64,000 nt of DNA, from positions 14,478,906-14,542,905 of the forward strand of contig NC_069135.1 in assembly GCF_026914265.1 (NCBI RefSeq), in the 5' to 3' direction. The notes under the pieces were generated by a model. It saw nothing but the letters and a program-made list of their open reading frames with translations, made no database searches and was not told where the DNA came from. Both the position numbers and the translations under genes were made by a program. How positions within the stretch are numbered: the stretch's first letter is position 1; each line of letters starts with the position of its first letter. Origin of the DNA: Mya arenaria (taxonomy: Eukaryota; Mollusca; Bivalvia; Myida; Myidae). This document shows positions 3,975 through 62,235 of the stretch, piece after piece.

Positions 3975-4082
3975 GTTGTATCTGAAGTTGAGAAAAAAGT
4001 TTCATTTAATTACCAATTTCATCCAAAGACACCAAAATTAATGATTATCATAGAGAAATAAAACAATATTCCCCCAGACATA

Positions 4083-30122: not shown

Positions 30123-30570
30123 CCTTAGTTTCATTTAAAATGGTGTTATAATGAAAAGTAATCTTTGATTGAAGTCTTCATTTTAAGGAAGTTTTTGCCT
30201 TTGGACGTAGCATATATGACGTAATTTATCACGTGGTATACACATACTGCCGAAGATTCTCACAGCATGCAGCCTCAGGTAATATGATTGTATTTCAGTG
30301 AATAGGATATTTTTTACTTTGATATAGATTTTTAATAAAGATAACTTGCTTTTTGTTGATGTTTTTTCCATCATTAGCAGGTGTACATACATTATACATA
30401 TGGTAGTTTACTCAGGGAAGGAGCTTAATGCATTCTTAGTGAAGTATAATATTCCAGAGAACCACTAACCAGTGTTTATGTCATGATTGTCGCAACCTTC
30501 ATTTACAGTGCAAATGTGTAACAGGTGACAAGTGGTTGGGTGTTTAATTATGGAATGTGTTATAATGTCT

Positions 30571-30745
30571 GAGGGTGAGAGTGGTCTAGTGGTACAGGGA
30601 TCAGCCTAAAGGTTAAAGGTTCGATCCCCACCAGTGGTACCTTCTCATGGCCTGTCAAAATGGACACCAGTACGGGCTACAGTGTGAGCCTATTAGCAGG
30701 CAGCTTTCGTCACTATTCAGCTAAAACAAATTAGTTTAAATTAAA
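30571..30745 (+). mobile_element. tRNA-derived SINE
   Basis: The head contains an A-box-like gtggtctagtggta and a perfect B box GGTTCGATCCC (30618-30628), followed by 'ccaccagtggtacc', a body with 'gacaccagtacgggctacag' and an AT-rich tail (aacaaattagtttaaatt). It was present before the tandem duplication, since unit 2 carries the same copy. Confidence 0.72.
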
Positions 30746-32020
30746 CTTATATGACGGTGATAAAACTGATAATCATTTTAATGTTATAAAATATTGAAAT
30801 GATGTAAAAAAAATGCAAAAAACTTATTGCCACATGCGAAGATAGTAACACCCTTGAAGTTAATTTTACAATTTTCTTTTAGTACAACATTTATAAGCAT
30901 TCATGATTGCTATTGGACTCCTTTGCTGTGTGTATTTCAATGCGGCTTGTGATGGTTTTGTTAAGCCAGTATTTATTTCAGATAGTAATACAAAATCATG
31001 AGCATTGAAACAGATAAATAATGCAAGCAAGCTTGCAATTCGCCATATGAATTCTGTACATCTGATATTGTTCTGATATATGCGCCTTTTCCCTGTGCTA
31101 TTCCATGACTACCAAGCTTGCTCACTGTTTATGTAGATTAGAGAAACATTGTTGCTTTTGTGTAATGGATAATACTTCTTGTTGTAGTTTTCATTTCAAA
31201 CAATGCTTAAACCTAAGTGTAGAATGGGACTTCTGACATATCTCACACAAGAGTGCCGTCTGTGTATTATACTTATAAGTGCCTGTAATTGTACACTGTA
31301 TGTGTGAAGAATTTACGTATACAGGGTTATCATGGAAAAATGAATACAAGTGTTCTTTGATGATGATTGCATAATGTTCGAACTGAAAATTCAAGCAATA
31401 TCATCCATGTAGCTTAAAAGCTGTTCGTCGATCTATCACTTCCTTTGATGAGACATTTTATTCTTTATGTTATTCATTGCATGATGCTGCAAGTTATGAT
31501 AAGTTTGTCAATAAATTGCCACCCATGCAAAGACCATGGTTTACAAGTCTTTTTTCAAATATAAATCTTTAACCTTTTTAGGATTTTTCCTCATGTGTCG
31601 TTGCAGTTTGCCTAGCTTCATCTATTTTAACATGGTTTTATAATGTTTCCATGTGCAATAAGTGTTTTATGATAACTATGAAAAAAATAAAGGATTATCC
31701 AGAATAGTTTGCTCTTTGTATTTCTTTTCCATCTTATTTACTACAGTATAACTTGCAGGTAGTTTGCATTGAAATGACTTCCTAGAAATAAATATAGTAT
31801 AAGTGTTTATATATGGTATGGTACAAGAATTCATACCATTGTTATTGGAGGAATTGAATGGTTTTGATGACTGAGTGGCTATAAAAACATAACAAAGGGA
31901 AGCTTATTGTTTTTCATACCATCCTTTTATGGACCTACTGGTTGCTTAAGCTGACAGTACTTGTATCAAATGCTATTACTTGAATACATAGCTAGATGTA
32001 CTAAATACACCTGCAGACTA

Positions 32021-32096
32021 ATGGTGGGGGAAGGAGTGAAAGTTCTGCACTTCACACTGGTGCTGGGGTTAGTTTTGTGTACAAGCAGTGTTCAAG
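32021..32096 (+). other. Candidate signal-peptide first exon, unit 1
   Basis: TATAAAAA at 31880-31887 lies about 140 bp upstream. ATG at 32021 opens MVGEGVKVLHFTLVLGLVLC then TSSVQ, a good signal peptide, followed by donor AAG/GTAATA at 32097 in phase 1. No downstream exon could be identified in the unit. Exon status rests on the TATA box, hydrophobic core and donor only. Confidence 0.33.
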
Positions 32097-33660
32097 GTAA
32101 TAGTGGTGCTTCCAGCTACAGAGGATTCAGATCAGTAAGATATTGTAGAAACTACTTGCACCTAGGTTGATTTGACCTTGTTTTCAGGTCTTGACCACCT
32201 GTGTCAGATCTTTGATATACCAAATTCAGTGGTCAACATATTAATTTGTCCAGTTAGAAGGCAACTTTTCTCAAGCTTTTCAATACACCTATTTCAGTTA
32301 TGCAGCAGTCAGCCATTATTGATTTCAGTCAGGTGAAGCGGTAGATATATACTGTGGCTGACTTAGTTAGAAAGTTGTTCACATATTATTATGTAGACCA
32401 CTCAAGAGGTTGAAGATTGTTGGTATGTACTTCTACGAAATAGATGGTTATGTGATACAGTGGCATACAAACCATTTGGTTTTTGTAAGTATGTACTAAC
32501 AATATGTAACTTATACTTAATATACCATTGAAATGCTTTAGAAATGTCTTCATTCATCACTTATAATGTGTATTTCTGTGCTCTTCTTATAGAAAAAAGT
32601 AAGTGACCTCTGAGATAGATTTATTGATAAAAATAAACTTCCATTAAAAGTACAAAACAACTTGCCAATAATATACTAGTATGTATTGTTGGACTATAGA
32701 ACTTAACAAAATAGTGATATTTGTAAACATTTGCCATGACTCAGCTGGTATTAAATAGTTTGAATCAAAGATAGAAGCACTAACAAGATAAGTAGCCTTG
32801 TTTGTACTGATGCTATCGATATATTTATTTGAAAATGACCCAAATTTTGAAATATGAACCACACAGAATTATATAACAAACAATGGACTTGAAATTTAAA
32901 GCACTACTTACAATAACCCGATACCCTAGCACACAGTCAGGTCATGATTGAGCTGTATAATAAGTATGTATAATAATAAATAAGACATGCATTTTGTGTA
33001 CTAAATAATAGATAAATAGCTTAAACACATCAGTATAGTTTCCATGGTTATAACAAATACAACAATATTATGCCTAGAAATTGCATTGTACAGCCCTCTC
33101 AATATTTCTTGCTGTATAGTATGTACATTTGTCCAGCTTTAACTTACTAACAAAGCAAGCAGGTACACCTAGAACAGAGTTAAACAACACCCTTATTGAT
33201 TAAAATTAGTGTTAGTTGAGCAAAATCTTATTCTTTGACATTAAAATAAATTTTGAGTACATTATTACCCCCCCCCTCCCCCCCCCCACCCCCTACACCT
33301 TACAGTTGAAAGCAATAAAAAAGTATAAAAATCAAATAATGAAATACAATCTTAATATCAATAAAAGTGAATTTGATCACAATTCATATGTTTAACATAA
33401 TATTGTATCTGGAAACTGAAAACTAGTTATATAAATACAATACAAATAAAATGAACATGCTTTTTTATAAGTTAGGAAAGTATTTTGGGCTTCAGATACA
33501 ATTAATATACAGTGTTTGCATTACATTAAAATTGTAAGGCACTTCATTCACATTCAACACAAGAACAATCCCTGATGTCATGAAATCAAAGCACCTTTCC
33601 TAGTTGTGTAGGACTATTTAAAATTACTGATATGGACAGCCTAACAAGGGTTGAGGGTAA

Positions 33661-33706
33661 AAAAGGTTCTAACTGACATTAAATATAGAAGCAGTTAGAA
33701 CCTTTT
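33661..33706. repeat. Perfect 15-bp hairpin, unit 1 (also in units 2-4)
   Basis: AAAAGGTTCTAACTG, a 16-nt loop, and the exact reverse complement. Identical hairpins lie at 42304-42349, 49712-49757 and 57232-57277, each about 650-715 bp beyond the dispanin stop codon on its strand, so possibly in the 3' untranslated region. Confidence 0.8.
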
Positions 33707-34374
33707 CGCTCTCACACCTTAAATTTGACTATCTAATAAGATCATACATACTAAATCTTAAACACAAAACCAGACTTATTTCATGCACACATATTCAGAA
33801 AAGCTCAATTATCATGGCTATATGTAAACATACCATGAATGCATTTGATCATATTCTTTAGTAAAACTTTCAAACAAAGTATTTGAGAACAAAGGTAAGA
33901 ATAGCATACATTGTAGATCAAAGGATGACCAGACAGCTTATAAGTTGACATAATTGTTACTGTACATGTATACCTAACAGGCGACATAAGCAGACACCCT
34001 ACATATAAACCAGTAATTAATTTCCTCAAACTAAAATGTACAATGTATAGTATCATTTGTCATCAGACAAATGTCTAAAGTCCAGAAGAGAATTGTATGT
34101 CTTCACGTTAATTCAATTAAGCAGATAAAAGGCACATCATAACATCCCGATGGGTTGCCGACAGCCCCTGGATAACCGGACGCTCTATTAATTTAACATT
34201 TGTTTCACCATTCCCAAAACATATCAACTCACACACTAAACACATGTTCGCAACAGTTTAGCTGCTCCAAGGTTTTGAATTTTAATTCAAATTATGTGAA
34301 TTCTGTGAATACGTGTAGCAAAAACTCGCACCTTGGTTTGTCAATTACAAATAATCTTTGCCATGTGTTAGGGG

Positions 34375-35144
34375 CTACGCCCCAGGACGTAGCGGTGATA
34401 ACGTGAAGAAGAGCGTCAACACCAGGACGTATGTAATTATTCCCGTGATGACGCCAAGTATAACAAATATCTTGGCCTTCTTCGCGTGACGTCGACACTC
34501 GACCTCGTCTCCCAATTGCCATGCGTTGTTGGCTTTCACTAGAAATACACAATATGGGGTTGAACCGTCTTATCAACATACGTTTGAACGGCTAGGCGAC
34601 AATAAAAGTCACCATTGAATAGGGTACAAAATATGTACACAGTAGGAGGCAAAACAAACTAGATATGAAGATAAGATAAAAACAACATATAATTAGGCAT
34701 TTGAATGAACGGATAATGACATGGTTATTAGAAATATGCTATCAGTTATCGGTGTTCTCTATAATACACGAGTCAACACACCACTATTTCTTATGTTGCA
34801 ACGACATTGTGTTGACTTTAATCATGTAGTCCGGAGTAGTTTCGATATTTGAACTAATGGTGTACTCACATCCGAAGTGCCATCCCGCGAGACCCCATAG
34901 AAAGTTGCAGAAGAGTATCACAAAACACGAGGTGACCACAAAGTCTTTGCACACCGGGCTCCCCCGCGTTACCCGTGCTGATAACGGTGGACTGAGAGCC
35001 CTGGGCACCCGATGAGACGCCAGGCGCTTGCTTCTTGGTGATGCCCACATGCACCTCGGTGTGGTCGATGGTGGCGGCGCTGTTCCGCTTCTCCTCCCCG
35101 CCGTTGGCCAGCGCATCAGCCACTTCAGGCGTGTCATCCATCAT
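34375..35144 (-). pseudogene. Dispanin/IFITM-like (CD225) gene, unit 1, frameshifted
   Basis: Exon 1 34870-35144 and exon 2 34375-34538 correspond to the intact copies, but exon 1 lacks 68 bp (equivalent to 43482-43549) between the GEPGV and DFVV segments. The loss is not a multiple of three and has no GT-AG ends, so the frame fails before the first membrane segment. Exon 2 remains open and almost unchanged, which suggests a recent loss. An assembly error is possible, since unit 3 is nearly identical apart from this gap. Confidence 0.78.
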
Positions 35145-36715
35145 CTGAATATATTTTAATCAAAGTGTGTAATTGTGTGTATATCTATTTATAAACATTT
35201 AGATAATACACTAAACAAGAATGGAATGTTCGTTACAGTATATTGATCATCCAGCATTATTCGATTAAATTCAACAATAATTTCTTAAAAAAAGGGACGT
35301 GCATAGATCTCTATCTGAATACAATAGCATTACAACCTCGTGGCCAAAAAGACATCTTACTATAGCATTGAACATAACATACATGATCATATAAAACAAC
35401 TAGGGGAGCCTTGGTGTCTATAATAAAGCATATTTCTAAGAAATAAATAGAACAATTCCATGGAAGTCTATTAGAACATATATGCGTTATTATGAACACT
35501 GTGGATCATTCGTGGTGTGGGGAATTTTGGGCTCCTCCCCCATTTTGTATTCTATTATCATTATTATCACGTCCGTCCGTGCGTGTGTGTGAGGGGTATC
35601 ATTTTAGTATAACATAGTGCTTCCTGCATGGTGTATGCTCTTGTTTTGTTTTCTACCATATTGACTTGAACAGTTTACTTAGACACTTAATTTTATGAGA
35701 CAGTTAATAGCGACCCAGTTAATAGTGTTTAGTATATTTGAGAGTCTGAGTGCCTAAAATGTCATTCAAGTCTAAGGACTTTATTTAGGTTTCGGTTGAC
35801 GGTAGTTGAACAACCAAAATGGTCCGATTTTTTCGTTGTAATTCTTTAAATACTTATCCCACTTGGTAAAAATGAGATTGACGCCTTCTTGAATACATTC
35901 CTTTTAAACTGTGATAGAGAAATGCGTGCATAACCTTACATGTTTACGCTAGATCGTTCTTTATAAAGGATGGGCCATACACTGATCAAACCTTTACAAA
36001 ACAGTGAATATCCTCTACCAAAAAGAATCTGCCTTTATATTTTGAGGCGCTAAAAGTTGGGTGGCACTCACGCATACATTATTCTGTTAGTATAAGCTAT
36101 ATGTGTTACTTTATCTATAGAAGTCATTGCATATATCAGTAATGGTACATTCTTTACGGTGTCGTGAACATTGTCATGTATACTTTTCAATTGTTTAATA
36201 CAGATATGTCAACCCTAAATAAACCCATCGATTGGGTTTAATTAAAGTTTGTAAATTTCAAACTGCTTCAAACTAGTTCCTTTCAAGTGAGATGAGGACG
36301 ACACGTTTCATACGAAGTAAGGAATAATTAATTATTTCACGAATGTTACCTTTTATATTTACAACTAATACAAGTATTTAAATACATACTAACAAATAAA
36401 ACGTGTCAAAACTAGTGAGTTATACCTTACAACATATATACGCCTCAATAATTTACCTTATTATCTCTTTAAGTATGTCTCCCAATTAAAGCTTAATTCC
36501 TTATATTTTGTCTTAATCATATTTAACCCTATGTTTACATCTTGAACAGTCAGTCCTTCACATTGAAGTGAATCAATCGGTAATTTGTCACACCTGTGGT
36601 ATACGTCATATATAGGTTACCTGTGAAATGACAAAGGGGAATAACCAGGCATAATAGATCACTGCACACCCTGGAAAACTGAGTATTATTAGCATCACAC
36701 GAGTTACGAACTTAC

Positions 36716-36800
36716 GTAGTTTCAGGAACTCGTGGAATGCATAGCAGAAATACTATTTGTGTTGACTTGACTGTTTTCACTTCCGAAAAAGTCAATGTTA
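36716..36800 (-). promoter_or_regulatory. Candidate 5' exon and promoter of the unit 1 dispanin copy
   Basis: A consensus GTAAGT donor (36714-36715 read as GT) ends a short exon-like stretch upstream of the coding-exon acceptor at 35145-35146. Just upstream, GGAAGTGAAA (36775-36784 reversed) fits the ETS-IRF composite consensus GGAANNGAAA. Matching donors and motifs occur in the other units (exon starts near 45300, 52829 and 60342). Transcription start not known. Confidence 0.4.
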
Positions 36801-37210
36801 TGATAAAACAATTAACCGAAACTGGGACCTCACCCAACACCCGATAACAAGGAAGCATTGTTGAAACTTGTATTAATCTGTCCATATTTTTGATATGATA
36901 TTATAATACTATAATAATCTGTAATTTACACTCCCTAATTGGACGTTTTTCTTCGGGTTTTTTTTTCTCATGTCGTATAAATCAAAGTTAAACTGTGGTT
37001 AAGTGATCAACGTGAACACCCTCTAAAACTCATCTAAAAACAGTTTCGATGTCAGAAGTATTTCGTTTAAAGCCAGAATTGTGCGAAATTTATACCAAAT
37101 TTGGAGTACACATCATGTACATGTCAAAAATCAACCGCAACAAATCCTTGAATAATTATATTATTCATCTCAATTGCAAATATATAAAATTATATATATA
37201 TACATTTCAT

Positions 37211-37318
37211 ATGCATTTTATTTCATATTTGTTCATGTACGTTAGTGTCTTAGCCATATCGATATTTATGCAATGTGTAAATGGCCAAGGCAAGATGCCG
37301 ATTTGCCAACAAAAACTT
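37211..37318 (+). other. Second candidate signal-peptide exon, unit 1 (frame-altered)
   Basis: Starts MHFISYLFMYVSVLAISIFM, then QCVNGQ, with a donor CTT/GTAAGA at 37319. One A is missing after 'ggccaa' relative to the other units, so the residues after the predicted cleavage site and the donor phase differ. It lies about 400 bp from, and divergent to, the dispanin 5' region. No downstream exon identified. Confidence 0.25.
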
Positions 37319-37798
37319 GTAAGAATTTTTATGTGTTTAATGTCAATTTCAAGGTTTTTGCCGTTGCTATTTAAGTCAACGAATTTCTCAATCCCATAAA
37401 ATTCTTATTAATCACTGTATTCAAGTTTTGTTCAATGTTTCAAGAGAAGTTTACGTTATTAAATAACAATTTAATGTAAAGTGATGTTTGATAGTATGAG
37501 TTAAGGTATTTTATAACCCAAAACCTTTTCAAAGTGCCCCGCACCCTTAGTTTCCATAGCATCGTTTACTAGAATACAATATGGTCGTATATTCACAATC
37601 TGTATCTTAAATGATCGACATAGATGACTTTTTGATCAACAACTATATTGATATTTAAAAATACAAACCCTGTTCATGAAGAACCACCCTTGCATATACC
37701 TCAAATACTTTTGTATAAAAATGAACCAAGAATCAAGGGTAAAAGGTCAAAGAAGAAAGGTCAATAACTTCAAAATACCTAAGACAGAGTTATGGTTC

Positions 37799-37901
37799 CT
37801 GTGCACTGTACTACTCCTCCATAATATATATGTATATATGTGTGTGTTGAACTGTGCACTGTACTATTCCTCCATAATATATATGTATATATGTGTGTGT
37901 T
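37799..37901. repeat. 53-bp VNTR, 2 units (unit 1)
   Basis: The unit starts 'ctgtgcactgtactactcct' and continues 'ccataatatatatgtatata' plus 'tgtgtgtgttgaa'. Two copies here and two each at 46382-46484 and 53904-54011. Confidence 0.8.
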
Positions 37902-38489
37902 TAGTTCAATTTAATATCTCAGATGTATGGAGTTATGCGCTGAAATATTTATATACATAGAGAATGAAACTATGTGCAACAACTTTGTGAATAAGAGATG
38001 GTCGACTATTGATTATTGCATTAGGCACTTCTCTTCTTTACCAGCTACTAATCACCCAAGATTCCTGTCAACATATTGAAAGGTGATGGAGAAATGCTAC
38101 CCCAAAACTTGTGTGACGGACATAAACACACATGCCTTTATTCTCAATAAATTCGTACTAATACAGCCTTTGGCAGGGGATAATTATATCAGCAAACAAC
38201 CATCACTCATGTTTCGTATTTTTATTTTATAATATAACGTTTCACCATTACAAGGTTATGATATATAAAACGTTCACATGTCATCAAAGACGAACAATAA
38301 AATTCACTCTTCATAAAGTCTTTCAAAAATAAATTACAGCAAATTCATACTTAAAAAGTGTAATTAGCACAAAGCAATGCTGCCTCTTTCTGAGATCAGA
38401 ATACAGACTTAATAAAGACTCAACAAAATATCCTTGTTATATTCCAACAAATACAATCAGTTGCAGATGATATGCTAAGTACTTGTATG

Positions 38490-38743
38490 TTGCTCCTTTG
38501 TTATGATAAGCTTGTCAAGGGCAATAACTCTACAATTGCTCCTTTGTTATGATAAGCTGATCAAGAGCAATAACTCTACAATTGCTCATATGTTATGATA
38601 AGCTGATCAAGGGTCATAACTCTACAATCGCTCATATGTTATGATCAGCTGATCAAGGGTCATAACTCTACAATTGATCATATGTTATGATAAGCTGATC
38701 AAGGGCCACAACTCTACAATTGCTCATATGTTATGATAAGCTA
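38490..38743. repeat. 46-bp minisatellite block at the end of unit 1
   Basis: About five and a half copies of the unit 'gataagctgatcaagggcaa' plus 'taactctacaattgctcctttgttat'. Truncated blocks of the same repeat (47090-47146 and 54604-54675) end units 2 and 3 at the fusion points. Confidence 0.85.
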
Positions 38744-39273
38744 ATACAACAAACTCAATCATTACAACTTTTAAAAAAGACATTCTTTAAAGTGATCAAT
38801 ATATTATGAAAAAGAATACCAGCTGTAATTTTTAAATTTGATGATGATGAAGCCAGTTTATTCCCTATTTTATGAGATCATTTGGAATGTGCTGCCGTAA
38901 GATGACTACCAAAATTGCTGCCTTTGGTTCTGGATGTAGTTTACTAACAAAAAGTCAAATACTACTTAATACACAAACGGTCTAAAAATAAGGCCATGGA
39001 TGTATGTAACAATATTGAAAACATTTATCGGTACTATTTAAAGAAAAACTATAATAACTTGCTTCTTACTGGTGGTGATGGTGATGCTGAAAATAACACA
39101 AGAGCAGTATGCAAATGTGACAAATATTTCTTTGATTGTCACTTATTTTAAAAAACCTTGGTTAATCTTATACATCAAAGTTTGAAAATAAACATATTTT
39201 CAACTCCATCCACAGTTAATAAACAGTTTGTTTGGCCATACCCACAACCAAATCTTTTTAAACATTTCAAAAC
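38744..39273. other. Non-duplicated spacer between units 1 and 2
   Basis: AT-rich sequence found once in the window. It ends where homology to the start of unit 1 begins. No gene recognised. Confidence 0.5.
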
Positions 39274-39483
39274 ATGTTTTTTCCATCATTAGCAGGTGTA
39301 CATACATTATACATATGGTAGTTTACTCAGGGAAGGAGCTTAATGCATTCTTAGTGAAGTATAATATTCCAGAGAACCACTAACCAGTGTTTATGTCATG
39401 ATTGTCGGAACCTTCATTTACAGTGCAAATGTGTAACAGGTGACAAGTGGTTGGGTGTTTCATTATGGAATGTGTTATAATGT

Positions 39484-39659
39484 CTGAGGGTGAGAGTGGT
39501 CTAGTGGTACAGGGATCAGCCTAAAGGTTATAGGTTCGATCCCCACCAGTGGTACCTTCTCATGGCCTGTCAAAATGGACACCAGTACGGGCTACAGTGT
39601 GAGCCTATTAGCAGGCAGCTTTCGTCACTATTCAGCTAAAACAAATTAGTTTAAATTAA
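39484..39659 (+). mobile_element. tRNA-derived SINE, duplicate of the copy in unit 1
   Basis: Near-identical to the 30571 copy, in the same place within unit 2, with the same B box and tail. Inherited by the segmental duplication, not a second insertion. Confidence 0.72.
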
Positions 39660-40678
39660 CTTATATGACGGTGATAAAACTGATAATCATTTTAATGTTA
39701 TAAAATATTGAAATGGTGTGATATTGTTCTGATATATGCGCCCTTTCCCTGTGCTATTCCATGACTACCAAGCTTGCTCACTGTTATTTATGTAGATTAG
39801 AGAAACATTGTTGCTTTTGTGTAATGGATAATACTTCTTGTTGTAGTTTTCATTTCAAACAATGCTTAAACCTAAGTGTAGAATGGGACTTCTGACATAT
39901 CTCACACAAGAGTGCCGTCTGTGTATTATACTTATAAGTGCCTGTAATTGTACACTGTATGTGTGAAGAATTTACGTATACAGGGTTATCATTGAAAAAT
40001 GAATACAAGTGTACTTTGGTGAGTGATTGCATAATTTTCGAACTGAAAATTCAAGCAATATCATCCATGTAGCTTAAAAGCTGTTGGTCGATCTATCACA
40101 TCCTTTGATGAGACATTTTATTCTTTATGTTATTCATTGCATGATGCTGCAAGTTATGATAAGTTTGTCAATAAATTGCCACCCGTGCAAAGACCATGGT
40201 TTACAAGTCTTTTTTCAAATATAAATCTTTAACCTTGTAGGATTTTTCCTGATGTGTTGTTGCAGTTTGCCTAGCTTCATCTATTTTAACATGGTTTTAT
40301 AATGTTTCCATGTGCAATAAGTGTTTTATGATAACTATGAAAAAATAAAGGATTATCCAGAATAGTTTGCTCTTTGTATTTCTTTTCCATCTTGTTTACT
40401 ACAGTATAACTTGCAGGTAGTTTGCATTAAAATGACTTCCTAGAAATAAATATGGTATAAGTGTTTATATATGGTATGGTACAAGAATTCATACCATTGT
40501 TATTGGAGGAATTGAATGGTTTTGATGACTGAGTGGCTATAAATACATAACAAAGGGAAGCTTATTGTTTTTCATACCATCCTTTTATGGACCTACTGGT
40601 TGCTTAAGCTGTCAATACTTGTATCAAATGCTATTATTTGAATACTTAGTTAGATGTACTAAATACACCTGCAGACTA

Positions 40679-40753
40679 ATGGTGGGGGAAGGAGTGAAAG
40701 TTCTGCACTTCACACTGGTGCTGTGGTTAGTTTGTGTACAAGCAGTGTTCAAG
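40679..40753 (+). other. Candidate signal-peptide first exon, unit 2
   Basis: Equivalent of 32021-32096 with one T missing, which changes the end to ..LWLVCVQAVFK and the donor phase from 1 to 0. Still hydrophobic. If the phase-1 donor is the functional one, this copy is out of frame. Confidence 0.28.
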
Positions 40754-43001
40754 GTAATAATGGTGCTTCCAGCTACAGAGGATTCAGATCAGTAAGATAT
40801 TGTAGAAACTACTTGCACCTAGGTTGATTTGACCTTGTTTTCAGGTCTTGACCACCTGTGTCAGATCTTTGATATACCAAATTCAGTCGTCAACATATTA
40901 ATTTGTCCAGTTAGAAGGCAACTTTTCTCAAGCTTTTCAATACACCTATTTCAGTTATGCAGCAGTCAGCCATTATTGATTTCAGTCAGGTGAAGCGATA
41001 GATATATACTGTGGCTGACTTAGTTAGAAAGTTGTTCACATATTATTATGTAGACCACTCAAGAGGTTGAAGATTGTTGGTATGTACTTCTACGAAATAG
41101 ATGGTTATGTGACACAGTGGCATACAAACCATTTGTTTTTTGTAAGTATGTACTAACAATATGTAACTTATACTTAATATACCATTGAAATGCTTTAGAA
41201 ATGTCTTCATTCATCACTTATAATGTGTATTTCTGTGCTCTTCTTATAGAAAAAAGTAAGTGACCTCTGAGATAGATTTATTGATAAAAATAAACTTCCA
41301 TTAAAAGTACAAAACAACTTGCCAATAATATACTAGTATGTATTGTTGGACTATAGAACTTAACAAAATAGTGATATTTGTAAACATTTGCCATGACTCA
41401 GCTGGTATTAAATAGTTTGAATCAAAGATAGAAGCACTAACAAGATAAGTAGCCTTGTTTGTACTGATGCTATCGATATATTTATTTGACAATGACCCAA
41501 ATTTTGAAATATGAACCACACAGAATAATATAACAAACAATGGACTTGAAATTTAAAGCAGTACTTACAATAACCCGATACCCTAGCACACAGTCAGGTC
41601 ATGATTGAGCTGTATAATAAGTATGTATAATAATAAATATGACATGCATTTTGTGTACTAAATAATAATGATAAATAGCTTAAACACATCTGTATAGTTT
41701 TCATGGATATAACAAATACAACAATATTATGCCTAGAAAGTGCATTGTAAAGCCCTCTCAATATTTCTTGCTGTATAGTATGTACATTTGTCCAGCTTTA
41801 ACTTACTAACAAAGCAAGCAGGTACACCTAGAACATAGTTAAACAACACCCTTATTGATTAAAATTAGTGTTAGTTGAGCAAAATCTTATTCTTTGACAT
41901 AAAAATAAACTTTGAGTACATTATTACCCCCCCCACCCCTACACCTTACAGTTGAAAGCAATAAAAAAGTATAAAAATCAAATAATGAAATACAATCTTA
42001 ATATCAATAAAGGTGAATTTGATCACAATTCATATGTATAACATAATATTGTATCTGGAAACTGAAAACTAGATATATAAATACAATACAAATAAAATGA
42101 ACATGCTTTTTTATAAGTTAGGAAAGTATTTTGGGCTTGATACACTTAATATACAGTGTTTGCATTACATTAAAATTGTAAGGCACTTCATTCACATTCA
42201 AAACAAGAACAATCCCTGATGTCATGAAATCAAAGCACCTTTCCTAGTTGTGTAGGACTGTTTAAATTTTTTGATATGGACAGCCTAACAAGGGTTGAGG
42301 GTAAAAAGGTTCTAACTGACATTAAATATAGAAGCAGTTAGAACCTTTTCGCTCTCACACCTTAGATTTGACTATCTAATAAGATCATACATACTAAATC
42401 TTAAACGCAAAACCTGACTTATTTCATGCACACATATTCAGAAAAGCTCAATTATCATGGCTATATGCAAACATACCATGAATGCATTTGATCATATTGT
42501 TTAGTAAAACTTTCAAACAAAGTATTTGAGAACAAAGGTAAGAATAGCATACATTGTAGATCAAAGGATGACCAGACAGCTTATAAGTTGACATAATTGT
42601 TACTGTACATGTATACCTAATAGGCGACATAAGCAGACACCCTACATATAAACCAGTAATTAATTTCCTCAAACTAAAATGTATAGTATCATTTGTCATC
42701 AGACAAATGTCTAATGTCCAGAAGAGAATTGTATGTCTTCACGTTAATTCGATTAAGCAGATAAAAGGCCCATCATAACATCCCGATGGGTTGCCGACAG
42801 CCCCTGGATAACCGGACGCTCTATTAATTTAACATTTGTTTCACCATTCCCAAAACATATCAACTCACACACTATACACATACACATGTACGCCACAGTT
42901 TAGCTGCTCCTAGGTTTTGAATTTTAATTCTGAAAATACGTGTAGCAAAAACTCGCACCTTGTTTTGTCAATTACAAGCAATCTTTGCCATGTGTTAGGG
43001 G

Positions 43002-48072: not shown

Positions 48073-48148
48073 ATGGTGGGGGAAGGAGTGAAAGTTCTGC
48101 ACTTCACACTGGTGCTGGGGTTAGTTTTGTGTACAAGCAGTGTTCAAG
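48073..48148 (+). other. Candidate signal-peptide first exon, unit 3
   Basis: Same length, phase and encoded peptide as the unit 1 copy (..HFTLVLGLVLCTSSVQ), with TATAAATA upstream near 47933. Confidence 0.33.
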
Positions 48149-51263: not shown

Positions 51264-52828
51264 CTGAATATATTTTAATCAAAGTGTGTAATTGTGTATA
51301 TATCTATTTATAAACATTTAGATAATACACTAAACAAGAATGGAATGTTCGTTACAGTATATTGATCATCCAGCATTATTCGATTAAATTCAACAATAAT
51401 TTCTTAAAAAAAGGGACGTGCATAGATCTCTATCTGAATATAATAGCATTACAACCTCGTGGCCAAAAAGACATCTTACTATAGCATTGAACATAACATA
51501 CATGATCATATAAAACAACTAGGGGAGCCTTGGTGTCTATAATAAAGCATATTTCTAAGAAATAAATAGAACAATTCCATGGAAGTCTATTAGAACATAT
51601 ATGCGTTATTATGAACACTGTGGATCATTCGTGGTGTGGGGAATTTTGGGCTCCTCCCCCATTTTGTATTCTATTATCATTATTATCACGTCCGTCCGTG
51701 CGTGTGTGTGAGGGGTATCATTTTAGTATAACATAGTGCTTCCTGCATGGTGTATGCTCTTGTTTTGTTTTCTACCATATTGACTTGAACAGTTTACTTA
51801 GACACTTAATTTTATGAGACAGTTAATAGCGACCCAGTTAATAGTGTTTAGTATATTTGAGAGTCTGAGTGCCTAAAATGTCATTCAAGTCTAAGGACTT
51901 TATTTAGGTTTCGGTTGACGGTAGTTGAACAACCAAAATGGTCCGATTCTTTCGTTGTAATTCTTTAAATACTTATCCCACTTGGTAAAAATGAGATTGA
52001 CGCCTTCTTGAATACATTCCTTTTAAACTGTGATAGAGAAATGCGTGCATAACCTTACATGTTTACGCTAGATCGTTCTTTATAAAGGATGGGCCATACA
52101 CTGATCAAACCTTTACAAAACAGTGAATATCCTCTACCAAAAAGAATCTGCCTTTATATTTTGAGGCGCTAAAAGTTGGGTGGCACTCACGCATACATTA
52201 TTCTGTTAGTATAAGCTATATGTGTTCTTTATCTATAGAAGTCAATGCATATATCAGTAATGGTACATTCTTTACGGTGTCGTGAACATTGTCATGTATA
52301 CTTTTCAATTGTTTAATACAGATATGTCAACCCTAAATAAACCCATCGATTGGGTTTAATTAAAGTTTGTAAATTTCAAACTGCTTCAAACTAGTACCTT
52401 TCAAGTGAGATGAGGACGACACGTTTCATACGAAGTAAGGAATAATTAATTATTTCACGAATGTTACCTTTTATATTTACAACTAATACAAGTATTTAAA
52501 TACACACTAACAAATAAAACGTGTCAAAACTAGTGAGTTATACCTTATAACATATATACGCCTCAATAATTTACCTTATTATCTCTTTAAGTATGTCTCC
52601 CAATTAAAGCTTAATTCCTTATATTTTGTCTTAATCATATTTAACCCTATGTTTACATCTTTAACAGTCAGTCCTTCACATTGAATCAATCGGTAATTTG
52701 TCACACCTGTGGTATACGTCATATATTGGTTACCTGTGAAATGACAAAGGGGAATAACCAGCCATAATAGATCACAGCACACCCTGGAACACTGAGTATT
52801 ATTAGCATCACACGAGTTACGAACTTAC

Positions 52829-52914
52829 GTAGTTTCAGGAACTCGTCGAATGCATAGCAGAAATACTATTTGTGTTGACTTGACTGTTTTCACTTCCGAA
52901 AAAGTCAATGTTAT
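52829..52914 (-). promoter_or_regulatory. Candidate 5' exon and promoter of the unit 3 dispanin gene
   Basis: Same donor (52827-52828) and motif (52888-52897 reversed) as the other units. Confidence 0.4.
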
Positions 52915-53314
52915 GATAGAACAATTAACCGAAACTGTGACCTCACCCAACACCCGATAACAAGGAAGCATTGTTGAAACTTGTATTAATCTGTCCATAT
53001 GTTTGATATGATATTATAATAATCTGTAATTTACACTCCCTAATTGGACGTTTTTCTTCGTTTTTTTTTTCTCTTGTCGTATTAATCAAAGTTAAACTGT
53101 GGTTAAGTGATCAACGTGAACACCCTCTAAAACTCATCTAAAAACAGTTTCGATGTCAGAAGTATTTTGTTTAAAGCCAGAATTGTGCGAAATTTATACC
53201 AAATTTGGAGTACACATCATGTACATGTCAAAAATCAACCGCAACAAATCCTTGAATAATTATATTATTCATCTCAATTGCAAATATATAAAATTATATA
53301 TATATACATTTCAT

Positions 53315-53423
53315 ATGCATTTTATTTCATATTTGTTCATGTACGTTAGTGTCTTGGCCATATCGATATTTATGCAATGTGTAAATGGCCAAAGGCAAGA
53401 TGCCGATTTGCCAACAAAAACTT
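53315..53423 (+). other. Second candidate signal-peptide exon, unit 3
   Basis: Encodes the same peptide and phase-1 donor as unit 2. Confidence 0.32.
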
Positions 53424-55601
53424 GTAAGAATTTTTATGTGTTTAATGTCAATTTCAAGGTTTTTGCCGTTGCTATTTAAGTCAACGAATTTCTCAATCCC
53501 ATAAAATTCTTATTAATCACTATATTCAAGTTTTGTTCAATGTTTCAAGAGAAGTTCACGTTATTAAATAACAATTTAATGTGAAGTGATGTTTGATAGT
53601 ATGAGTTAAAGTATTTTATAACCCAAAACCTTTTCAAAGTGCCCCGCACCCTTAGTTTCCATAGCATCGTTTACTAGAATACAATATGGTCGTATATTCA
53701 CAATCTGTATCTTAAATGATCGACATAGATGACTTTTTGATCAACAACTATATTGATATTTAAAAATACAAACCCTGTTCATGAAGAACCACCCTTGCAT
53801 ATACCTCAAATACTTTTGTATAAAAATGAACCAAGAATCAAGGGTAAAAGGTCAAAGAAGAAAGGTCAATAACTTCAAAATACCTAAGACAGAGTTATGG
53901 TTCCTGTGCACTGTACTACTCCTCCATAATATATATGTATATATGTATTGTGTGTGTTGAACTGTGCACTGTACTATTCCTCCATAATATATATGTATAT
54001 ATGTGTGTGTTTAGTTCAATTTAATATCTCAGATGTATGGAGTTATGCGCTGAAATATTTATATACATAGAGAATGAAACTATGTGCAACAACTTTGTGA
54101 ATAAGAGATGGTCGACTATTGGTTATTGCATTAGGCACTTCTATTCTTTTCCAGCTACCAATCACCCAAGATTCCTGTCAACATATTGAAAGGTGATGGA
54201 GAAATGCTACCCCAAAACTTGTGTGACGGACATAAACACACATGCCTTTATTCTCAATAAATTCGTACTAATACAGCCTTTGGCAGGGGATAATTATATC
54301 AGCAAACAACCATCACTCATGTTTCGTATTTTTATTTTATAATATAACGTTTCACCATTACAAGGTTATGATATATAAAACGTTCACATGTCATCAAAGA
54401 CGAACAATAAAATTCACTCTTCATAAAGTCTTTCAAAAATAAATTACAACAAATTCATACTTAAAAAGTGTAATTAGCACAAAGCAATGCTGCCTCTTTC
54501 TGAGATCAGAATACAGACTTAATAAAGACTCAACAAAATATCCTTGTTATATTCCAACAAATACAATCAGTTGCAGATGATATGCTAAGTACTTGTATGT
54601 TGCTCCTTTGTTATGATAAGCTTGTCAAGGGCAATAACTCTACAATTGCTCCTTTGTTATGATAAGCTGATCAAGCTATTCCATGACTACCAAGCTTGCT
54701 CACTATTATTTATGTAGATTAGAGAAACATTGTTGCTTTTGTGTAATGGATAATACTTCTTGTTGTAGTTTTCATTTCAAACAATGCTTAAACCTAAGTG
54801 TAGAATGGGACTTCTGACATATCTCACACAAGAGTGCCGTCTGTGTATTATACTTATAAGTGCCTGTAATTGTACACTGTATGTGTGAAGAATTTACGTA
54901 TACAGGGTTATCATGGAAAAATGAATACAAGTGTACTTTGGTGAGTGATTGCATAATGTTCGAACTGAAAATTCAAGCAATATCATCCATGTAGCTTAAA
55001 AGCTGTTCGTCGATCTATCACATCCTTTGATGAGACATTTTATTCTTTATGTTATTCATTGCATGATGCTGCAAGTTATGATAAGTTTGTCAATAAATTG
55101 CCACCCGTGCAAAGACCATGGTTTACAAGTCTTTTTTTCAAATATAAATCTTTAACCTTGTAGGATTTTTCCTGATGTGTTGTTGCAGTTTGCCTAGCTT
55201 CATCTATTTTAACACGGTTTTATAATGTTTCCATGTGCAATAAGTGTTTTATGATAACTATGAAAAAATAAAGGATTATCCAGAATAGTTTGCTCTTTGT
55301 ATTTCTTTTCCATCTTGTTTACTACAGTATAACTTGCATGTAGTTTGCATTAAAATGACTTCCTAGAAATAAATATGGTATAAGTGTTTATATATGGTAT
55401 GGTACAAGAATTCATACCATTGTTATTGGAGGAATTGAATGGTTTTGATGACTGAGTGGCTATAAAAACATAACAAAGGGAAGCTTATTGTTTTTCATAC
55501 CATCCTTTTATGGACCTACTGGTTGCTTAAGCTGTCAATACTTGTATCAAATGCTATTATTTGAATACTTAGCTAGATGTACTAAATACACCTGCAGACT
55601 A

Positions 55602-55676
55602 ATGGTGGGGGAAGGAGTGAAAGTTCTGCACTTCACACTGGTGCTGGGGTTAGTTTGTGTACAAGCAGTGTTCAAG
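55602..55676 (+). other. Candidate signal-peptide first exon, unit 4
   Basis: Carries the same one-base loss as unit 2 and so ends in phase 0 (..LGLVCVQAVFK). TATAAAAA lies upstream near 55461. Confidence 0.28.
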
Positions 55677-57938
55677 GTAATAATGGTGCTTCCAGCTACA
55701 GAGGATTCAGATCATTAAGATATTGTAGAAACTACTTGCACCTAGGTTGATTTGACCTTGTTTTCAGGTCTTGACCACCTGTGTCAGATCTTTGATATAC
55801 CAAATTCAGTCGTCAACATATTAATTTGTCCAGTTAGAAGGCAACTTTTCTCAAGCTTTTCAATACACCTATTTCAGTTATGCAGCAGTCAGCCATTATT
55901 GATTTCAGTCAGGTGAAGCGGTAGATATATACTGTGGCTGACTTAGTTAGAAAGTTGTTCACATATTATTATGTAGACCACTCAAGAGGTTGAAGATTGT
56001 TGGCACGTACTTCTACGAAATAGATGGTTATGTGATACAGTGGCATACAAACCATTTGGTTTTTGTAAGTATGTACTAACAATATGTAACTTATACTTAA
56101 TATACCATTGAAATGCTTTAGAAATGTCTTCATTCATCACTTATAATGTGTATTTCTGTGCTCTTCTTATAGAAAAAAGTAAGTGACCTCTGAGATAGAT
56201 TTATTGATAAAAATAAACTTCCATTAAAAGTACAAAACAACTCGCCTATAATATACTAGTATGTATTGTTGGACTATAGAACTTAACAAAATAGTGATAT
56301 TTGTAAACATTTGACTCAGCTGGTATTAAATAGTTTGAATCAAAGATAGAAGCACTAACAAGATAAGTAGCCTTGTTTGTACTGATGCTATCGATATATT
56401 TATTTGAAAATGACCCAAATTTTGAAATATGAACCACACAGAATTATATAACAAACAATGGACTTGAAATTTAAAGCACTACTTACAATAACCCGATACC
56501 CTAGCACACAGTCAGGTCATGATTGAGCTGTATAATAAGTATGTATAATAATAAATAAGACATGCATTTTGTGTACTAAATAATAGATAAATAGCTTAAA
56601 CACATCAGTATAGTTTCCATGGTTATAACAAATACAACAATATTATGCCTAGAAATTGCATTGTACAGCCCTCTCAATATTTCTTGCTGTATAGTATGTA
56701 CATTTGTCCAGCTTTAACTTACTAACAAATCAAGCAGGTACACCTAGAACATAGTTAAACAACACCCTTATTGATTAAAATTAGTGTTAGTTGAGCAAAA
56801 TCTTATTCTTTGACATTAAAATAAATTTTGAGTACATTATTACCCCCCCCCTCCCCCCACCCCCTACACCTTACAGTTGAAAGCAATAAAAAAGTATAAA
56901 AATCAAATAATGAAATACAATCTTAATATCAATAAAAGTGAATTTGATCACAATTCATATGTTTAACATAATATTGTATCTGGAAACTGAAAACTAGTTA
57001 TATAAATACAATACAAATAAAATGAACATGCTTTTTTATAAGTTAGGAAAGTATTTTGGGCTTCAGATACAATTAATATACAGTGTTTGCATTACATTAA
57101 AATTGTAAGGCACTTCATTCACATTCAAAACAAGAACAATCCCTGATGTCATGAAATCAAAGCACCTTTCCTAGTTGTGTAGGACTATTTAAAATTACTG
57201 ATATGGACAGCCTAACAAGGGTTGAGGGTAAAAAAGGTTCTAACTGACATTAAATATAGAAGCAGTTAGAACCTTTTCGCTCTCACACCTTAAATTTGAC
57301 TATCTAATAAGATCATACATACTAAATCTTAAACACAAAACCAGACTTATTTCATGCACACATATTCAGAAAAGCTCAATTATCATGGCTATATGTAAAC
57401 ATACCATGAATGCATTTGATCATATTCTTTAGTAAAACTTTCAAACAAAGTATTTGAGAACAAAGGTAAGAATAGCATACATTGTAGATCAAAGGATGAC
57501 CAGACAGCTTATAAGTTGACATAATTGTTACTGTACATGTATACCTAACAGGCGACATAAGCAGACACCCTACATATAAACCAGTAATTAATTTCCTCAA
57601 ACTACAATGTATGGTATCATTTGTCATCAGACAAATGTCTTAAGTCCAGAAGAGAATTGTATGTCTTCACGTTAATTCAATTAAGCAGATAAAAGGCACA
57701 TCATAACATCCCGATGGGTTGCCGACAGCCCCTGGATAACCGGACGCTCTATTAATTTAACATTTGTTTCACCATTCCCAAAACATATCAACTCGCACAC
57801 TATACACATGTGCGCAACAGTTTAGCTGCTCCTAGGTTTTGAATTTTAATTCAAATTATGTGAATTCTGTGAATACGTGTAGCAAAAACTCGCACCTTGT
57901 TTTGTCAATTACAAATAATCTTTGCCATGTGTTAGGGG

Positions 57939-58776
57939 CTACGCCCCAGGACGTAGCGGTGATAACGTGAAGAAGAGCGTCAACACCAGGACGTATGTAA
58001 TTATTCCCGTGATGACGCCAAGTATAACAAATATCTTGGCCTTCTTCGCGTGACGTCGACACTCGACCTCGTCTCCCAATTGCCATGCGTTGTTGGCTTT
58101 CACTAGAAATACACAATCTGGGGTTGAACCGTCTTATCAACATACGTTTGAACTGCTAGGCGACAATAAAAGTCACCATTGAATAGGGTACAAAATATGT
58201 GCACAGTAGGAGGCAAAACAAACTAGATATGAAGATAAGATAAAAACAACATATAATTAGGCATTTGAATGAACGGATAATGACATGGTTTTTAGAAATA
58301 TGCTATCAGTTATCGGTGTTCTCTATAATACACGAGTCAACACACCACTATTTCTTATGTTGCAACGACATTGTGTTGACTTTAATCATGTAGTCCGGAG
58401 TAGTTTCGATATTTGAACTAATGGTGTACTCACATCCGAAGTGCCATCCCGCGAGACCCCATAGAAAGTTGCAGAAGAGTATCACAAAACACGAGGTGAC
58501 CACAAAGTCTTTGGGCTTGTCCTCTGGGTTTGGCTTCTGCACGATAACCTGGGTGAGCCCGCTCTCCGTGGTCGAGTAACGCACACCGGGCTCCCCCGCG
58601 TTACCCGTGCTGATAACGGTGGACTGAGAGCCCTGGGCGCCCGATGAGACGCCAGGCGCTTGCTTCTTGGTGATGCCCACATGCACCTCGGTGTGGTCGA
58701 TGGTGGCGGCGCTGTTCCGCTTCTCCTCCCCGCCGTTGGCCAGCGCATCAGCCACTTCAGGCGTGTCATCCATCAT
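57939..58776 (-). CDS. Dispanin/IFITM-like (CD225) membrane protein, unit 4
   Basis: Exons 58434-58776 and 57939-58102, intact and phase-matched, 168 residues. Over the coding exons it reads like unit 3 (Ala13, Glu17, Gln39, Phe158-Phe159), although the left third of its unit is closer to unit 2. This mosaic pattern suggests conversion between copies. Confidence 0.83.
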
Positions 58777-60341
58777 CTGAATATATTTTAATCAAAGTGT
58801 GTAATTGTGTGTATATCTATTTATAAACATTTAGATAATACACTAAACAAGAATGGAATGTTCGTTACAGTATATTGATCATCCAGCATTATTCGATTAA
58901 ATTCAACAATAATTTCTTAAAAAAGGGACGTGCATAGATCTCTTTCTGAATATAATAGCATTACAACCTCGTGGCCAAAAAGACATCTTACTATAGCATT
59001 GAACATAACATACATGATCATATAAAACAACTAGGGGAGCCTTGGTGTCTATAATAAAGCATATTTCTAACAAATAAATAGAACAATTCCATGGAAGTCT
59101 ATTAGAACATATATGCGTTATTATGAATACTGTGGATCATTCGTGGTGTGGGGAATTTTGGGCTCCTCCCCCATTTTGTATTCTATTATCATTATTATCA
59201 CGTCCGTCCGTGCGTGTGTGTGAGGGGTATCATTTTAGTATAACATAGTGCTTCCTGCATGGTGTATGCTCTTGTTTTGTTTTCTACCATATTGACTTGA
59301 ACAGTTTACTTAGACACTTAATTTTATGAGACAGTTAATAGCGACCCAGTTTATAGTGTTTAGTATATTTGAGAGTCTGAGTGCCTAAATTGTCATTCAA
59401 GTCTAAGGACTTTATTTATGTTTCGGCTGGCGGTAGTTGAACAACCAAAATGGTCCGATTTTTTCGTTGTAATTCTTTAAATACTTATCCCACTTGGTAA
59501 AAATGAGATTGACGCCTTCTTGAATACATTCCTTTCAAACTGTGATAGAGAAATGCGTGCATAACCTTACATGTTTACGCTAGATCGTTCTTTATAAAGG
59601 ATGGGCCATACACTGATCAAACCTTTACAAAACAGTGAATATCCTCTACCAAAAAGAATCTGCCTTTATATTTTGAGGCGCTAAAAGTTGGGTGGCACTC
59701 ACGCATACATTATTCTGTTAGTATAAGCTATATGTGTTACTTTATCTATAGAAGTCATTGCATATATCAGTAATGGTACATTCTTTACGGTGTCGTGAAC
59801 ATTGTCATGTATACTTTTCAATTGTTTAATACAGATATGTCAACCCTAAATAAACCCATCGATTGGGTTTAATTAAAGTTTGTAAATTTCAAACTGCTTC
59901 AAACTAGTTCCTTTCAAGTGAGATGAGGACGACACGTTTCATACGAAGTAAGGAATAATTAATTATTTCACGAATGTTACCTTTTATATTTACAACTAAT
60001 ACAAGTATTTAAATACACACTAACAAATAAAACGTGTCAAAACTAGTGAGTTATACCTTACAACATATATACGCCTCAATAATTTACCTTATTATCTCTT
60101 TAAGTATGTCTCCCAATTAAAGCTTAATTCCTTATATTTTGTCTTAATCATATTTAACCCTATGTTTACATCTTTAACAGTCAGTCCTTCACATTGAATC
60201 AATCGGTAATTTGTCACACCTGTGGTATACGTCATATATTGGTTACCTGTGAAATGACAAAGGGGAATAACCAGGCATAATAGATCACTGCACACCCTGG
60301 AAAACTGAGTATTATTAGCATCACACGAGTTACGAACTTAC

Positions 60342-60427
60342 GTAGTTTCAGGAACTCGTCGAATGCATAGCAGAAATACTATTTGTGTTGACTTGACTGT
60401 TTTCACTTCCGAAAAAGTCAATGTTAT
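60342..60427 (-). promoter_or_regulatory. Candidate 5' exon and promoter of the unit 4 dispanin gene
   Basis: Same donor (60340-60341) and motif (60411-60420 reversed) as the other units. Confidence 0.4.
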
Positions 60428-60828
60428 GATAAAACAATTAACCGAAACTGTGACCTCACCCAACACCCGATAACAAGGAAGCATTGTTGAAACTTGTATT
60501 AATCTGTCCATATGTTTGATATGATATTATAATACTATAATAATCTGTAATTTACACTCCCTAATTGGACGTTTTTCTTCGGGTTTTTTTCTCATGTCGT
60601 ATTAATCAAAGTTAAACTGTGGTCAACGTGAACACCCTCTAAAACTCATCTAAAAACAGTTTCAATGTCAGAAGTATTTCGTTTAAAGCCAGAATTGTGC
60701 GAAATTTATACCAAATTTGGAGTACACATCATGTACACGTCAAAAATCAACCGCAACAAATCCTTGAATAATTATAATATTCATCTCAATTGCAAATATA
60801 TAAAATTATATATATATATACATTTCAT

Positions 60829-60937
60829 ATGCATTTAATTTCATATTTGTTCATGTACGTTAGTGTCTTGGCCATATCGATATTTATGCAATGTGTAAAT
60901 GGCCAAAGGCAAGATGCCGATTTGCCAATAAAAACTT
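60829..60937 (+). other. Second candidate signal-peptide exon, unit 4
   Basis: Reads MHLISYLFMYVSVLAISIFM and then QCVNGQRQDADLPIKT with the same donor and phase; two substitutions relative to unit 2. Confidence 0.32.
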
Positions 60938-61419
60938 GTAAGAATTTTTATGTGTTTAATGTCAATTTCAAGGTTTTTGCCGTTGCTATTTGAGTCAACG
61001 AATTTCTCAATCGCATAAAATTCTTATTAATCACTTTATTCAAGTTTTGTTTAATGTTTTAAGAGAAGTTCACGTTATTAAATAACAATTTAATGTGAAG
61101 TGATGTTTCATAGTATGAGTTAAAGTATTTTATAACCCAAAACCTTTTCAAAGTGCCCCGCACCCTTAGTTTCCATAGCATCGTTTACTAGAATACAATA
61201 TGGTCGTATATTCACAATCTGTATCTTAAATGATCGACATAGATGACTTTTTAATATCAACAACTCTATTGGTATTTAAAAATACAAACCCTGTTCATGA
61301 AGAACCACCCTTGCATATACCTCAAATACTTTTGTATAAAAATGAACCAAGAATCAAGGGTAAAAGGTCAAAGAAGAAAGGTCAATAACTTCAAAATACC
61401 TAAGACAGAGTTATGGTTC

Positions 61420-61677
61420 CTGTGCACTGTACTACTCCTCCATAATATATATGTATATATGTGTGTGTTGAACTGTGCACTGTACTACTCCTCCATAATA
61501 TATATGTATATATGTGTGTGTTGAACTGTGCACTGTACTACTCCTCCATAATATATATGTATATATGTGTGTGTTATTGTGCACTGTACTACTCCTCCAT
61601 AATATATATGTATATATGTGTGTGTTGAACTGGGCACTGTACTACTCCTCCATAATATATATATGTATATATGTGTT
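61420..61677. repeat. 53-bp VNTR, 5 units (unit 4)
   Basis: Same unit as in the other duplications but expanded to five copies, with small changes (ttattgtgcac in the fourth, tgggcac in the fifth). Confidence 0.85.
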
Positions 61678-62235
61678 TAGTTCAATTTAATATCTCAAAG
61701 ATGTATAGAGAATGAAACTATGTGCAACAACTTTGTGAATAAGAGATGGTCGACTATTGGTTATTGCATTAGGCACTTCTCTTCTTTTCCAGCTACCAAT
61801 CACCCAAGATTCCTGTCAACATATTGAAAGGTGATGGAGAAATGCTACCCCCAAACTTGTGTGACCGACATAAACACACATGCCTTTATTTTCAAAATTA
61901 AATTCGTACTAATACAGCCTTTGGCAGGGGATAATTATATCAGCATACAACCATCACTCATGTTTCGTATTTTTATTTTATAATATAACGTTTCACCATT
62001 ACAAGGTTATGATATATAAAACGTTCACATGTCATCAAAGACGAACAATAAAATTCACTCTTCATAAAATCTTTCAAAAATAAATTACAACAAATTCATA
62101 CTTAAAAAGTGTAATTAGCACAAAGCAATGCTGCCTCTTTCTGAGATCAGAATACAGACTTAATAAAGACTCAAAATATCTTTGTTATATTCCAACAAAT
62201 ACAATCAGTTGCAGATGATATGCTAAGTACTTGTA

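Follow-up and report, generated by a model that had tools for sequence, protein, structure and literature searches.

We identified an array in which a 7.4–8.9 kb unit is repeated four times in tandem, as direct repeats with defined ends, within the window (the whole 64,000-nucleotide stretch of Mya arenaria DNA analysed here). A single minus-strand CD225-domain gene, with two predicted exons, is present in each unit. With a probability of roughly 0.7, we interpret the array as a recent tandem amplification of a single ordinary invertebrate CD225-family gene, with a 46-bp minisatellite as the seed and a two-step duplication that yielded mosaic copies of a gene with an inferred role in membrane trafficking. 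Self-comparison of the window bears out the original prediction of a tandem arrangement of four copies, and its limits of 30359-62235 proved correct to within 2 bases; the filter-feeding host that it proposed is supported as well, the species being Mya arenaria. Searches of the whole assembly (1.216 Gb in 18 contigs) located the array gene at four places only, namely these copies.

The coordinates of the units and their features are listed in Table 1. Copies 1 and 2 open with an extra left part that copies 3 and 4 lack. The same junction separates copy 2 from copy 3 and copy 3 from copy 4; it falls inside the minisatellite, matching its second unit, and the two junction types in the array differ. 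The array ends 824 bases beyond the right edge of the window, at position 824 of the right flank (L009). Within this flank, L009:48-824 matches 38490-39267 at 97.3% and thus supplies the right end that the long unit lacks inside the window, while the sequence beyond L009:824 is dissimilar. The stretch from copy 4 to the minisatellite (62238-62990) was found only once in the genome, and a repeated transposon at this place was therefore ruled out.

Table 1. Positions of the repeat units, CD225 genes, and minisatellites in the window
Feature	Position	Strand	Remarks
Copy 1 (U1)	30359..39273		longest unit; contains left part 30359-31096
Copy 2 (U2)	39274..47146		
Copy 2 left part	39274-39752		common to copy 1 only; without 257 bases 30806-31062
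Copy 3 (U3)	47147..54675		
Copy 4 (U4)	54676..62237		
Copy 1 CD225 gene, coding exon A	34870..35144	-	68-base deletion at ~34949, frame shifted
Copy 1 CD225 gene, coding exon B	34375..34538	-	out of frame relative to usual start
Copy 2 CD225 gene, coding exon A	43402..43744	-	ATG start at 43744
Copy 2 CD225 gene, coding exon B and stop	43002..43165	-	
Copy 2 intron	43166-43401	-	236 nt, shortened
Copy 3 CD225 gene, coding exon A	50921..51263	-	
Copy 3 CD225 gene, coding exon B and stop	50426..50589	-	
Copy 3 intron	50590-50920	-	331 nt, GT..AG
Copy 4 CD225 gene, coding exon A	58434..58776	-	
Copy 4 CD225 gene, coding exon B and stop	57939..58102	-	
Copy 4 intron	58103-58433	-	
46-bp minisatellite, 5.5 units	38490..38742		right end of copy 1, followed by right tail
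46-bp minisatellite array, right of copy 4	62991..64000		continues ~298 bases into L009

Given this anatomy, we propose that an 8.9 kb segment, at about 30359-39267, would have been duplicated in a first step. In the right-hand copy, a 7.5 kb segment extending from ‘CTATTCC’ (the equivalent of 31097) to the second minisatellite unit would have been duplicated in a second step, and the new junction may have been copied again via unequal crossing-over, giving rise to copies 2, 3, and 4. A two-step tandem model predicts a right flank of the kind observed, with the missing right end followed by unlike sequence, which counts in favor of the model.

The copies diverge from one another by 0.74–1.47%, in addition to indels, as expected from the recent expansion originally predicted. 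The copies are mosaics. All three classes of two-against-two sites are present (19, 10, and 5), and the singletons of copy 2 are clustered, with 46 of 52 falling within 3000 columns, a concentration reached by 0 of 2000 random placements. The singletons of copy 1 showed no clustering (P 0.08–0.92), which counts against the mosaic reading. Exchange between copies or alleles may have left this mosaic state. The coding sequence is as variable as the remainder of the unit (8 of 439 versus 154 of 6738 columns; Fisher P 0.62), and the coding changes between copies 2 and 3 comprise three synonymous and five non-synonymous ones. We observed no sign of purifying or positive selection in this comparison, in which 8 variable sites among 439 coding columns provide low power and selection could still be acting. 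The amplification was probably neutral or a change in dosage, and not an antiviral arms race.

The divergence between copies also bears on whether the four copies could partly be an assembly artefact, with heterozygous alleles or a mis-resolved repeat placed end to end. Heterozygosity in bivalves is of the same order as this divergence. Two further CD225 pairs in the genome, inverted on C1, show 97.9–98.9% and 99.87% identity, which likewise favors an artefact. The same is true of the published Mya arenaria genome (1.22 Gb, 17 chromosomes), which, according to the available portion of PMC10663159, was assembled from a single clam and needed FALCON-Unzip and purge_haplotigs because bivalve heterozygosity is high. 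However, the right flank fits the tandem model, and the array has two different types of junction and sits anchored within a single chromosome-sized contig. Private gaps of 68 bases in copy 1, 95 in copy 2, and 28 in copy 4 further make simple copying of one allele unlikely, although the copies could still be alleles. We therefore regard an artefactual origin of part of the array as unlikely and favor a recent tandem amplification.

The array gene belongs to the CD225 family only as far as the CD225 domain is concerned. The joined product of copies 3 and 4 scored 46.6 bits (E 3.7e-12) against PF04505, and the copy 2 product scored 46.5 bits. As 46.6 bits exceeds the curated cut-off of 27.1 bits, the outcome named in advance as fatal to the family assignment, the lack of a CD225 match, did not occur. 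With an exon join predicted from the sequence, copies 2–4 encode a putative protein of 168 residues, consisting of a polar N-terminal tail of 86 residues, two hydrophobic segments (1 and 2) separated by a basic loop (GDEVECRRHAKKAK), and a short tail at the end. Hydropathy peaks at residues 91–109 (2.12) and 138–156 (2.59) point to two membrane helices, as in dispanins. The anticipated family loop GD-x4-R-x2-AK reads GD-EVEC-R-RH-AK in all four copies, on the minus strand. The membrane-proximal cysteines that had been noted with it are present as C96 and C102, and they do not form a CC pair.

Using the dispanin features listed in the accessible part of PMC3282796, we compared the array gene with the family and with 11 other CD225 loci of the same genome. 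Similar to other family members, the array gene covers profile positions 1–67 of 68 and contains the G-D loop motif (G124-D125), a basic loop, an acidic residue before helix 1 (the flanking Asp, D90), glycines in helix 2 (G143 and G147), a predicted intron in the loop, a long N-terminal tail, and a short C-terminal tail. In contrast, helix 1 carries F101-C102 in place of the double cysteine (or C-F-C), and the loop carries C129-x6-A136 in place of A-X(6)-A. Among the 11 loci, eight have CC, two FC, and one neither, while A-X(6)-A is found in six and missing from five. The array gene also has G where all 11 loci carry the helix-1 alanine, with A109 located one residue before. Finally, its predicted GT..AG intron has phase 1 and is located 5 nt upstream of the position at which a phase-0 intron occurs in the 11 other loci with both exons read.

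Copy 1 carries a 68-base deletion that shifts its frame, leaving three of the four genes intact, and its product in the usual frame gave no PF04505 match. Copy 1 could nevertheless be alive if the deletion joins a second frame to the CD225 domain, such that a third ATG would yield a protein of 143 residues whose N-terminal tail is quite different. This alternative frame is open, and its predicted join reaches a CD225 score of 43.9 bits. However, the protein would require scanning past two ATGs, the second of which has A at -3 and G at +4, and an open frame over ~63 G+C-rich codons may arise by chance; we consider a living copy 1 very unlikely.

The idea that the unit carries some other gene as cargo was rejected, since a Pfam scan of 10 further, longer open frames in copy 3 gave nothing that reached 0.1. 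The 37016-37396 frame of copy 1 matched DUF5904 below the cut-off (16.7 versus 25.7 bits). No solved structure matched the array gene in sequence at E up to 1, NCBIfam returned no match, Rfam gave none at the gathering score, and no tRNA was found. In the search for viral contigs, three stretches matched a pattern and none was confirmed.

The array gene is at most 30% identical to the 13 other CD225 domains that were compared, and it was left unplaced in a tree built from the genome's own members. Two sets of loci, L023-L026 (C3, 49.63-49.68 Mb) and L027-L030 (C3, 27.4-28.8 Mb), resemble the array in that their CD225 genes are grouped, but they are only 25–28% identical to the array gene. The first group is diverged, unlike the array, and the second extends across 1.4 Mb and includes stretches of DNA that are 74–97% alike. 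Among the literature matches listed, none described an expansion of CD225 genes in bivalves.

CD225 genes in tandem are mostly considered in the context of vertebrate IFITM immunity. The array resembles the vertebrate IFITM1-3 (DSPA) cluster in that its CD225 genes are arranged in tandem and are predicted to be interrupted by an intron in the loop. In contrast to that cluster, the array gene lacks matches to R85 and G95 and a CC pair, making it at most a cousin within the family. We take G91 of IFITM3 to be the G of the GD motif. With residue numbering from the available portions of PMC11730294 and PMC7665892, which report that R85Q and G95L abolish IFITM3 activity, the R85 position (the R-SNARE-like zero layer) is occupied by N, the sixth residue before GD, and the G91-xxx-G95 oligomerization motif is replaced by G-DEV-E, with E at G95. 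IFITM membership of the array gene was rejected on these residue tests (R85, G95, and CC). The initial description as ‘IFITM-like’ is weak because all three matches are missing from the array gene, while L032 and L033 in the same genome carry them.

An alternative view is that an IFITM-like antiviral restriction factor, which would stiffen membranes and block virus–cell fusion, has expanded specifically in this bivalve lineage. The presence of a CD225 domain is consistent with this view, as are the likewise tandem IFITM genes of the DSPA2 group and the 10 dispanin-family proteins in an Aplysia antiviral gene list, reported in the accessible sections of PMC3282796 and PMC9334734, respectively. 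However, R85 is replaced by N, G95 by E, and the double cysteine by F-C, one of four copies is frame-shifted, and the same part of PMC3282796 places invertebrate dispanins closer to DSPC/DSPD than to IFITM. We thus consider this view improbable. The immune role hinted at in the original prediction is unsupported, as the functional residues of IFITM3 are not conserved and one copy in four is frame-shifted. No ISRE-, IRF-, or NF-kB-like sites were detected in 35146-38565, which says little, given a chance expectation of just 0.03–0.15 each. The two GAS-like matches in this region come from a single palindrome, and 1.89 would be expected by chance.

Mya arenaria is a clam known for transmissible cancer. 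One could imagine a fusion-blocking factor, now amplifying and having independently arrived at an IFITM-like tandem copy number, that would act without R85, G95, and CC through a different CD225 chemistry against virus entry or foreign-cell contact, with copy 1 adding a variant with a frame-swapped tail; we consider this extremely unlikely. Under the favored recent amplification of an ordinary CD225-family gene, the array protein would reside in vesicle or plasma membranes and may modulate membrane trafficking or fusion, by analogy with other CD225 proteins. A CD225 gene without the known IFITM determinants can also undergo recent amplification, and tandem copy number by itself is therefore no argument for an antiviral role. 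For the antiviral question, L032 and L033 are the better candidates in this genome.

Local alignments resolved four direct repeats in the window, each carrying a CD225 loop on the minus strand, and the original prediction of a tandem four-copy cluster is thus borne out as assembled. The window lies at C14:14478906-14542905 of the Mya arenaria assembly, with a G+C content of 34%. The genome paper gives 1.22 Gb, 17 chromosomes and 35% G+C, and a mitogenome whose full length is 19,815 bp once the D-loop is extended from 845 to 2,727 bp (PMC10663159); subtracting the extension leaves 17,933 bp.

Repeat copies in the window and three CD225 loci on contig C1
Feature	Position	Basis or content
Copy 1	30359-39273	local alignment
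Copy 2	39274-47146	local alignment
Copy 3	47147-54675	local alignment
Copy 4	54676-62237	local alignment
L032, L033	C1:40.71 and 41.56 Mb	CD225 genes
L034	C1:41.61 Mb	CD225 gene, only exon A read; CC there

Genome-wide searches covered the assembly of 1,216,080,610 bases in 18 contigs. The window gene protein gave nine exon matches and the DNA search six matches, every one inside the four copies. By tblastn, the protein had no match in the first 10 kb to the right (L009) or in the 10 kb to the left (L013), and one match in each of the three segments farther right, L010, L011 and L012 (three in total, E 2.3-5.3). At the start of L009 the 46-bp minisatellite carries on past the window edge and is followed by the right end of the 8.9 kb long unit (L009:48-824, 97.3% to 38490-39267) and then by unlike sequence, which puts the end of the assembled four-copy array at C14:14543729. 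The array is real and recent in this assembly, and the main open risk is an assembly error behind its copy number.

Modelled with two exons and a GT..AG intron, copies 2, 3 and 4 are each predicted to encode 168 residues; copies 3 and 4 yield one and the same protein, from which that of copy 2 differs at five residues. Family membership held against the profile: the predicted product of copies 3 and 4 scores 46.6 bits with PF04505 (E 3.7e-12, cut-off 27.1). Copy 1 is missing 68 bases of exon A, and its product in the usual frame matches nothing in Pfam up to E 1; starting at the third ATG, in a different frame, a 143-residue protein with a CD225 domain (43.9 bits) is predicted. In the array, three genes are intact, and they belong to a known domain family.

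The left part of the long unit is present in copies 1 (30359-31096) and 2 (39274-39752) and absent from copies 3 and 4, the right end beyond the minisatellite occurs in copy 1 and again after copy 4, and the junction between copies 2 and 3 is the same as that between copies 3 and 4, both lying within the second 46-bp unit. Because this layout fits it, we propose that one tandem duplication of 8.9 kb may have been followed by an internal 7.5 kb amplification. Substitution between copy pairs amounts to 0.74-1.47%, with coding and other columns equally variable (8/439 vs 154/6738, P 0.62). Private gaps comprise 68, 95 and 28 bases in copies 1, 2 and 4, and a 155-157-base gap common to copies 1-3 stems from a 53-bp tandem array that is longer in copy 4. 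Two-against-two sites back every one of the three groupings (19, 10 and 5). Singletons are strongly clustered in copy 2 (46 of the 52 lie within 3000 columns, which none of 2000 random placements matched), clustered at some window sizes in copies 3 and 4 (with 1000 columns, P 0.0035 and 0.001), and not clustered in copy 1 (P 0.08-0.92). Given the support for all three groupings and this clustering, at least two copies, 2 and 4, appear to be mosaics. A stretch of 753 bases (62238-62990) separates copy 4 from the minisatellite; copy 1 does not have it, and the genome search located it a single time. It represents either inserted DNA or an ancestral segment that the other copies have lost.

Two stretches of the window gene protein are hydrophobic, peaking at 91-109 and 138-156; there are three cysteines, at 96, 102 and 129, a GD at 124-125 and no CC. 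When the genome was searched with the CD225 profile, 51 candidates were scored and 22 matches listed, which fall in 16 loci (L023-L038), all outside the window. The intron-split window genes are themselves missing among these matches, so further such genes can escape the search; in 14 control genomes it gave no match. Both exons could be read by eye in 11 loci (L023-L033), where the intron, also read by eye, is in phase 0 and falls between the residues eight and seven positions before GD, whereas that of the window gene is in phase 1, 5 nt farther upstream. The window gene has FC where 8 of the 11 have CC, N six residues before GD (R in two), E four after G (G in six), C-x6-A (A-x6-A in six) and G at the helix-1 alanine column (A in all 11). 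Its top identity is 30% among 13 other CD225 sequences compared, and its branch in the tree is long, its placement not being given by the tree.

Published work names the dispanin motifs and places invertebrate members closer to DSPC/DSPD than to IFITM (PMC3282796), ties CD225 function to SNARE binding via a central arginine missing from a subset of members (PMC11730294), shows that G91/G95 are needed (PMC7665892) and reports 10 dispanin proteins in Aplysia (PMC9334734). From family knowledge, the window gene product would modulate membrane trafficking. The immune role hinted at by analogy with vertebrate antiviral IFITM proteins is unsupported for the window gene. L032 and L033 combine CC, R at the zero layer, G-xxx-G and A-x6-A, none of which the window gene has. 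These two genes, together with L034, whose exon A has CC, are nearer IFITM3 than the window gene is; judged by residues, an antiviral role is less likely for the window gene than for L032 and L033. In the 3.4 kb upstream of the copy 1 gene (35146-38565) we found no ISRE-like, IRF-like or NF-kB-like sites, an absence that says little since 200 simulated sequences gave chance expectations of only 0.03, 0.15 and 0.12. Two GAS-like matches there form one palindrome (1.89 expected).

On C1, L032 and L033 lie in opposite orientation, 0.8 Mb apart, with 97.9-98.9% identity in two long blocks, and L037 and L038 likewise, 2.6 Mb apart, at 99.87%; each pair is either an inverted duplication or a retained haplotig. 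On C3, four diverged CD225 genes (L023-L026) occupy ~55 kb at 49.63-49.68 Mb, and four with nearly identical domains (L027-L030) span 1.4 Mb at 27.4-28.8 Mb, with DNA stretches 74-97% alike.

Elsewhere in the window, a reverse-transcriptase element is spread over several frames at 8597-10634 (+), with RVT_1 at 8926-9852 (106.3 bits). A Ser/Pro/Lys-rich open frame of 475 codons at 26429-27853 (+) matched no Pfam family up to E 1; another, short frame that includes a TM-like stretch has Pfam matches only under the curated cut-offs. Minisatellites at 4074-4655 (27-bp) and 21866-22829 (51-bp) have periods that are multiples of three, and long repetitive open frames result.
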